Origin: Elusimicrobia bacterium RIFOXYA2_FULL_50_26 | Lineage (GTDB): Bacteria; Elusimicrobiota; Endomicrobiia; Endomicrobiales; XYA2-FULL-47-53 | NCBI GenBank assembly: GCA_001800355.1 | Contig: MGVF01000007.1 | Location: forward strand, 1-36,680 | Reading direction: 5' to 3' | Length of the DNA: 36,680 nucleotides | Shown here: piece after piece, positions 13,687 through 13,942 of the stretch | Layout: each line of letters opens with the position of its first letter | Position numbering within the stretch: the stretch's first letter is position 1 | Translations under genes and position numbers: made by a program | The notes under the pieces: generated by a model | What the model was told of the DNA's origin: nothing | Database searches by the model: none | What the model saw: the letters and a program-made list of their open reading frames with translations, nothing else

Positions 13687-13872
13687 TTCCGCCTCTTCGG
13701 CGGCGCTCGGGTCAGCTTCGAATAGATTTTAAAAAACGGAGAGGGTGGGATTCCTTCTCCCCCGTCGCTGGCGCGACTCCTCCGAAGCCTGCTGCCCTCG
13801 CTTTTTTCCGCCTCTTCGGCGGCGCTCGGGTCAGCTTCGAATAGATTTTAAAAAACGGAGAGGGTGGGATTC
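13687..13872. repeat. 67-bp direct repeat including the tRNA-Ser 3' end
   Basis: 13687-13753 and 13806-13872 are identical, 119 bases apart. The right copy includes the last 17 bases of the tRNA-Ser gene and the sequence just 3' of it, including the hairpin CCGCC/GGCGG. The 52-base spacer is GC-rich and holds GTCGC-TGGC-GCGAC. It is a partial tandem duplication or attachment-site-like structure. Confidence 0.85.
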
Positions 13873-13942
13873 GAACCCACGGTACCATTGCTGGTACACA
13901 CACTTTCCAGGCGTGCCTGTTAAACCGCTCCAGCACCTCTCC
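13856..13942 (-). tRNA. tRNA-Ser (anticodon GGA)
   Basis: An 87-base class II tRNA on the minus strand. The acceptor stem is GGAGAGG with CCTCTCC and discriminator G. The anticodon stem CACGC/GTGTG encloses loop CTGGAAA (anticodon GGA). A long variable arm (TACCAGC...GGTA region) precedes T arm GTGGG-TTCGAAT-CCCAC. No CCA is encoded. The last 17 bases recur downstream at 13737-13753. Confidence 0.95.

Follow-up and report, generated by a model that had tools for sequence, protein, structure and literature searches.

Short folded elements without genes recur behind tRNA and tmRNA genes of Elusimicrobiota and carry copies of the host gene's end

A repeated unit behind tRNA-Ser

The window, by which we mean the whole 36,680-nt stretch of DNA analysed here, carries an intact tRNA-Ser(GGA) gene on its minus strand (13855..13943 in ARAGORN, 13856-13942 in Rfam). 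Positions 13687-13753 and 13806-13872 are identical over 67 nt and start 119 nt apart, exactly as a sequence-only reading of this DNA had described, and the repeat combines 17 nt of tRNA-Ser (13856-13872) with the 50 nt behind the tRNA. When the window is compared with itself, this pair is its longest exact direct repeat, the next ones measuring 55, 36 and 29 nt with copies that lie kilobases apart. The 55-bp repeat (1407-1461 and 6854-6908, 5.4 kb apart) has its first copy just before a zeta-toxin-like ORF (1473-2042).

Read on the tRNA strand, the first unit runs from tRNA-Ser to base 73 through a 13-nt leader that connects tRNA and element (13843..13855), the inverted T-loop copy ATTCGAA, here called iT (13836..13842), and a structured core of 82 nt (13754..13835) to a direct copy of tRNA bases 57-73, here called dT (13737..13753). 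The target copy of that duplicated segment, inside the gene itself, lies at 13856..13872 and is identical to 13737-13753. A second unit follows, consisting of the leader (13724..13736), ATTCGAA (13717..13723) and the initial 30 nt of the core, which ends at the first hairpin (13687..13716). The tRNA-Ser of the window has one full and one cut-off 119-bp unit behind it, all on the minus strand. The three bases next outward from iT mismatch the T stem of tRNA-Ser, and the leader is nearly the same at the tRNA-Ser of another genome (G003, locus L039). The palindrome in the insert had been read as a terminator-like hairpin, a reading that we reject because the palindrome forms the left portion of an element core that is conserved.

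The same reading proposed a class of elements that target tRNA flanks, with the tRNA-Ser and tRNA-Asn genes of the window as its two cases. The proposal holds, one core recurring at many tRNAs and in many genomes, with the correction that the two cases belong to separate families, R1 at tRNA-Ser and R2 at tRNA-Asn. Inspection of the tRNA flanks in the window's own genome, as had been suggested, revealed a partial copy of the gene's own end near 3 of 24 tRNAs (Ser, Asn and a Leu on contig C107). At the other 21, two of which stand at contig starts and have no flank, an exact 11-mer scan returned only neighbouring tRNA genes or short or low-complexity flank words. Genes lacking a duplication had been expected to speak against a class; they make up 21 of 24 here and 34 of 41 in genome G280, and the class reading stands because the elements occupy only some tRNAs. 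An assembly artefact as the source of the tandem copy is very unlikely, since the same architecture occurs with different tRNAs in other assemblies.

Other repeats were seen in the same genome. The tRNA-Leu (L033, G000:C107:24591-24676) is followed, 120 nt downstream, by a 24-bp copy of its 3' end, and the insert between them gives no R1 match. A dispersed palindrome, GTCATTGCGAGCGAAGCGAAGCAATCT or its complement, occurs in the window at 15490, 22500, 24259, 25710, 28031 and 31335, and on contigs C135 and C66 the stretches between tRNA genes hold palindromic tracts of AGTACATAGTACACAGTAC-like units (L026, L028, L034, L038).

Distribution of the R1 family

When the DNA of relatives was searched, the unit matched next to tRNAs other than Ser. 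The same core adjoins tRNA-Gly, Glu, Thr, Met, Ala and Leu, and in each case ends in that tRNA's own 3' end. The covariance model R1 was built from 11 aligned elements, one of them the full core copy of the window (match 13747-13848, 104 bits), and found at least 105 matches in at least 33 of 340 genomes of the phylum; the second figure is a lower bound, the best 11 candidates per genome having been scored. With 150 candidates on 21 carriers, the number of matches increased only in G234 (from 9 to 11). Six of the 33 carriers (G000, G001, G002, G003, G005 and G024) supplied the seeds and match by construction, and the other 27 supplied none. The model holds 17 arm positions, and copies with other ends score lower and are found less easily. 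Its E-values come from a short calibration, the genomes are metagenome assemblies, and a match does not always equal a separate element, as a nested insert can split one into two (L177, L225).

Among 18 further genomes reached through named loci, 3 had R1 matches at E≤0.01. Elusimicrobia CG03 has 4 matches, with two loci behind tRNA-Gly and tRNA-Thr; Elusimicrobia UBA6262 has 2, one behind a tRNA with unread bases and one without a tRNA call; and a Margulisiibacteriota record has a weak match, also without a tRNA call. The closest relatives of gltD in named genomes are from Omnitrophota (64-67% identity). Synteny around gltD was tried as a route to orthologous tRNA-Ser sites and given up, as the 18 loci scanned for tRNAs, out of 80, contained none; the neighbourhoods served as a negative control. 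R1 found nothing at E≤0.1 in all 80 (about 0.52 Mb). As the 18 scanned loci are free of tRNAs, this shows no more than that the core is uncommon outside tDNA.

In an Rfam search of the element only tRNA reached its gathering score, the remaining matches being below threshold and mostly over tRNA genes, and a known RNA family was rejected on this ground. Rfam intron families gave nothing at E≤1 in 8 loci. One exact 16-mer occurs in 20 viral contigs, none of which holds a real R1 match (best 15.9 bits, E 0.08). Our searches of an open-licence literature library listed no description of such elements. As far as these searches reach, the R1 family is a new family of very short, gene-less, folded elements at the ends of tRNA and tmRNA genes.

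Position and orientation at tRNA and tmRNA genes

An intact tRNA or tmRNA gene lies upstream on the same strand at 95 of 112 R1 matches (97 loci). This count takes in two elements behind tmRNA genes (L230, L242) and one core behind tRNA-Gly that is fused downstream to the 5' end of a tRNA-Thr gene (L249). For 92 of the 112 the nearest tRNA is intact, upstream and on the same strand, within 65 nt in 76 cases and 467 nt away in the farthest; none of those 92 has its nearest tRNA on the opposite strand. The host tRNAs of the 92 span 14 isotypes and 29 anticodons.

Upstream of the other 17 matches no intact tRNA or tmRNA was recognised. Several of them lie at contig edges (e.g., L152, L206, L216, L227, L241), and five (L175, L212, L215, L219, L251) stand behind apparent tRNA or tmRNA ends that ARAGORN does not call. 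No tRNA was found at L155, L208 and L156, all on contig C6 of G003, or at L243, and Rfam returned no match on the G003 region. That region (L415, G003:C6:172500-184700) holds three R1-family elements in 12 kb whose ends read AAATCCCGTCAGCC and which stand behind a conserved ACAGGTACGGATGGCG stretch and not behind a tRNA or an Rfam match. Since several copies lie at contig ends, the elements may hinder assembly and tRNA annotation in this large uncultured phylum.

Fold of the core

The structure that we drew has a stem between the two arms (P1), a long P2 with an apical hairpin, and P3. Its test used 33 hand-chosen elements of similar length, with the structure drawn from one of them. Pairing is possible in 94.6% of 766 cells, versus 80.4% in shuffles and 33-51% when the structure is slid along the alignment. 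Double changes, affecting both sides of a pair, occur in 103 cells, of which 70 are outside P1; covariation within P1 is expected because of the arms alone. None of 500 shuffles reached the observed values in four of five fold measures, and 60 of 500 reached the fifth, further pair types. The core fold covaries. Single sequences fold with only slightly greater stability than shuffles do (z -1.0 to -2.9).

Both ends follow the host tRNA

The terminal repeats of the R1 family are not constant; the arms vary with the host tRNA. At the right end, dT repeats the host tRNA from base 57, with identity over the full 17 nt in 49 of 92 cases, while the longest run in 1,840 control pairings with tRNAs of other isotypes was 10. 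At the left end, iT reproduces the host tRNA in inverted form, starting at T54, with a mean run of 9.8 against 5.7 in the control, and for either arm 0 of 200 permutations reached the observed sum. The left-arm control itself reaches 14 because T arms are alike, and the variable positions were therefore tested. In 27 pairs of elements with cores at least 80% alike and a differing T54-C63 segment, the iT of each element agrees with that element's tRNA at 42 of 42 positions, which are not independent because the pairs share members.

Changes in single hosts are mirrored as well. Where tRNA-Lys(ctt) has TGCAAG the left arm has CTTGCA, and where tmRNA has TGCGAAT it has ATTCGCA; in both the changed base lies outside the P1-pairing part of the arm. 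Selection on the P1 stem, in place of copying, could also maintain iT. A third kind of insert (L238, L234, L189, L039), which starts with GACCGAG, often followed by GAGGAAGTGCCGC, interrupts an extra copy of the T stem and looks like a nested insertion into a duplicated tRNA end.

The match between left arm and host could also reflect the choice of target. The element would then carry iT as a guide and hit only those tRNAs whose T arm pairs with it, an alternative that we consider unlikely but serious. As such a guide should be, iT is antisense to T54-C63: among the 83 of 112 matches taken into the analysis, agreement extends to 779 of 830 bases and is complete in 54 of 83 arms. Yet the cores at Gly(tcc) and Lys(ctt) of one genome are 93% alike, and their iT differs at exactly the three positions at which the tRNAs differ, so that a change of guide would always have to precede a change of core.

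Filled and empty sites

Sister genomes allow occupied sites to be compared with empty ones. The element stands at 7 of 41 tRNAs in G280. Five sites are filled in G280 and empty in G284, namely Arg(cct), Lys(ttt), Leu, Ser(gct) and Gly(gcc); for Gly(ccc) it is G284 that is filled and G280 that is empty, and Ser(gga) and Ser(cga) are filled in both. The Arg(cct) site is also empty in G282, and its 300 nt upstream are 99% identical. Between G280 and G284, the upstream flanks of Lys and of Gly(ccc) are each identical to 0.90, those of Gly(gcc) to 0.88 and those of Ser(gct) to no more than 0.56. A common downstream flank identified the Leu pair, whose anticodons differ: at what is apparently the same locus (L182 in G280, L328 in G284) one sister has tRNA-Leu(taa) and the other tRNA-Leu(caa), and the two genes agree at their ends but not in their anticodon arms. 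In another comparison, Leu(taa) is filled in G217 and empty in G216 and G218.

The filled sites define what is gained. In Arg(cct) and Leu the duplicated target is the 17 nt of tRNA bases 57-73 (with a single mismatch in Leu), and iT is preceded by a leader that the empty site lacks. The Lys duplication appears about 12 nt longer, and overall the duplicated length beyond base 73 ranges from 0 to tens of nucleotides. Between the two copies lie 119 nt in Arg, 137 in Leu, 112 in Lys and 137 in Gly(ccc).

These differences bear on the possibility that R1 is a cellular gene for a structured RNA, passed on vertically and co-transcribed with tRNAs as a processing or termination signal, with its arms kept by selection. 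The covariation of the fold, the tRNA orientation in 92 of 92 cases and the sites that are filled in both members of a pair, namely the two Ser sites of G280 and G284 and Ser(gga) in the window genome and G003, would all suit such a gene. The occupied tRNAs, however, differ between sister genomes, at six tRNAs in G280 and G284, the one genus compared fully, and the family is patchy in the phylum (at least 33 of 340 genomes, a lower bound). Moreover, cores group by genome and not by anticodon. In a comparison of 101 of the 112 matches (length ≥85), counted over the 83 with a labelled tRNA, the nearest core was that of another locus in the same genome in 34 (3.6% expected at random) and that of the same anticodon in 2 (4.9% expected). 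We regard a cellular RNA gene as improbable.

The remnant of a genomic island, that is, a tyrosine integrase island that entered a tRNA, restored its 3' end and shrank to a stub between attL and attR, is slightly less probable still. Its target sublocation, tRNA restoration and use of both tRNA and tmRNA genes would be those of Islander islands in the available text on them (PMC4383910). Against it, tRNA genes of 29 anticodons and two tmRNA genes are all followed by one folding core, the copies stand 112-137 nt apart in four filled sites that could be compared with empty ones, and dT is that of the target tRNA, whereas attP would carry the tRNA end of the donor. Simple tandem duplication or slippage of a tRNA end with its terminator, or an assembly error, is hardly credible: the window alone looks that way, but its insert is a core conserved between tRNAs and between genomes, and the empty sites lack it, so that duplication is refuted as the whole story and may explain the tandem units (L148).

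A second family at tRNA-Asn

The tRNA-Asn fragment noted in the sequence-only reading is real. Positions 716-731 repeat 878-893 exactly, 162 nt apart (16 nt, or 23 nt with 2 mismatches). The host gene, an intact tRNA-Asn(GTT), is on the plus strand (882..955, ARAGORN). On the same strand, a partial tRNA-Asn copy that reaches from the 5' end to the D loop (719..738) is followed by a core with a GAATAA hairpin (729..806; R2 match of 75 bits, the copy being one of the R2 seeds) and an inverted copy of the tRNA-Asn D arm (810..823, the exact inverse of 894-907). The R2 core has this GAATAA hairpin and a GAG..GTGAG hairpin, placed after the copy of the tRNA 5' end and before the inverted D arm. R2 is a family separate from R1, with mirror geometry.

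A covariance search found R2 in 41 of 340 genomes of the phylum, with at least 14 matches in the richest. The motif was located in 25 of 30 loci, and 15 of these 25 copies are within 300 nt of an intact tRNA; several lie inside partial copies of Ser, Asn, Glu and Ala tRNAs. R2 also occurs inside the core and the dT copy of R1 elements (L177, L192) and about 100 nt before the tmRNA of the window's genome. It is looser in its target than the R1 family. A 20-mer of R2 occurs in no viral contig scanned. R2 inserts were seen in D loops and other places of tRNA copies (window 716-882; L253, L255, L257, L259, L365-L394), and tRNA-Asn-like genes of G003 and G227 (L253, L259) have an anticodon region apparently interrupted by long intron-like inserts.

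A probable mobile element with the T loop as its target

We interpret R1 as a family of non-coding mobile elements whose homing site is the T loop of tRNA and tmRNA genes and which restore the gene, with a probability of roughly 0.75. The core measures about 80-140 nt and the right joint, at base 56|57, is precise. This joint, a second break and the target duplication form the geometry of staggered insertion or of target-primed copying, and neither of these alone gives an inverted target copy at the left end.

A protein supplied in trans might insert the core by staggered attack, cutting one strand at base 56|57 and the other at or beyond 73|74; such an attack would therefore leave the tRNA 3' end duplicated and the gene intact. 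The left arm would be written anew at each insertion by copying the target's T arm, possibly through fold-back or a template switch at the near-palindromic T loop. Left arm and dT would close the P1 stem, and the left arm may act as an antisense guide in the round that follows. Repeated insertion at one site, or unequal exchange, could produce the tandem units, with outer copies decaying as in the window.

No mobilising gene was found in our search, and neither a transcript nor an excised or circular form of the element was seen. A resident reverse transcriptase was considered as mobiliser and seems not to be needed: RVT_1 is enriched in carriers (14 of 33, versus 56 of 307 other genomes; Fisher p 0.0026 with phylogeny ignored), yet 19 of 33 carriers give no match, among them G001 and G228, which are rated 100% complete.

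Within this mobile-element reading, a stronger version is tentative and, in our estimate, falls somewhat short of even odds: a self-reprogramming homing element, in which a gene-less structured RNA or DNA about 100 nt long acquires, with each insertion, an antisense copy of the target's T arm as its left end. If so, every copy of the element carries a guide matched to its current host gene; targets would then be recognised on a new principle, one that might lend itself to use as a programmable inserter. We know of no other case of targeting by an arm that is rewritten at each jump.

Comparison with known systems

tRNA genes are a classic landing site of large mobile DNA, and structured RNA also enters them. 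Group I and group II introns in tRNA genes are structured RNAs that pair with their target sequence. The R1 family resembles them in structure, in its location in tDNA and in its pairing with the target, and differs in standing outside the mature tRNA, in having no Rfam match and in leaving an intact copy of the gene. MITEs and REP/BIME repeats are short, non-coding, folding and dispersed, and presumably moved in trans. R1 elements share all of these properties, the trans movement again presumably, but have terminal repeats that follow the target, nearly always tDNA, and no short duplication of fixed length. The TRE elements of Dictyostelium are much larger, coding retroelements that insert near tRNA genes and not inside them. 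Common to them and the R1 family, as far as the available part of the source describes them, is the use of tRNA genes as safe landing sites (PMC5006619).

Casposases duplicate 14-15 bp at tRNA 3' ends in the experiments covered by the available parts of two sources (PMC6614799, PMC6977970). To that extent casposons and the R1 family share the duplication of a tRNA 3' end, the R1 counterpart being 17 nt in two clear cases, and insertion on a fixed side of the target (PMC6614799, PMC6977970). Unlike casposons as described there, R1 elements have no genes and no fixed terminal inverted repeats, and they have a structured core and a left arm that follows the target.

Islander islands are genomic islands and integrative conjugative elements with tyrosine integrases in tRNA and tmRNA genes. 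As the available text presents them, they have in common with the R1 family a crossover region in the T arm, a displaced 3' fragment, a restored gene and the use of both gene types (PMC4383910). In contrast, the copies of an R1 element are about 110-140 nt apart, which leaves no room for an integrase, and one core serves many tRNAs and takes its tRNA end from the target. Where an island is recognised by a fixed tDNA end and a single target gene, R1 has 29 anticodons and a right end that is the host's own tRNA. Going by the same text, Islander would discard R1 elements, because its filters need an integrase and at least 2 kb (PMC4383910). The R1 family would be a far smaller, gene-less element that uses the same gene end, rebuilds the tRNA and carries an antisense copy of its host's arm.
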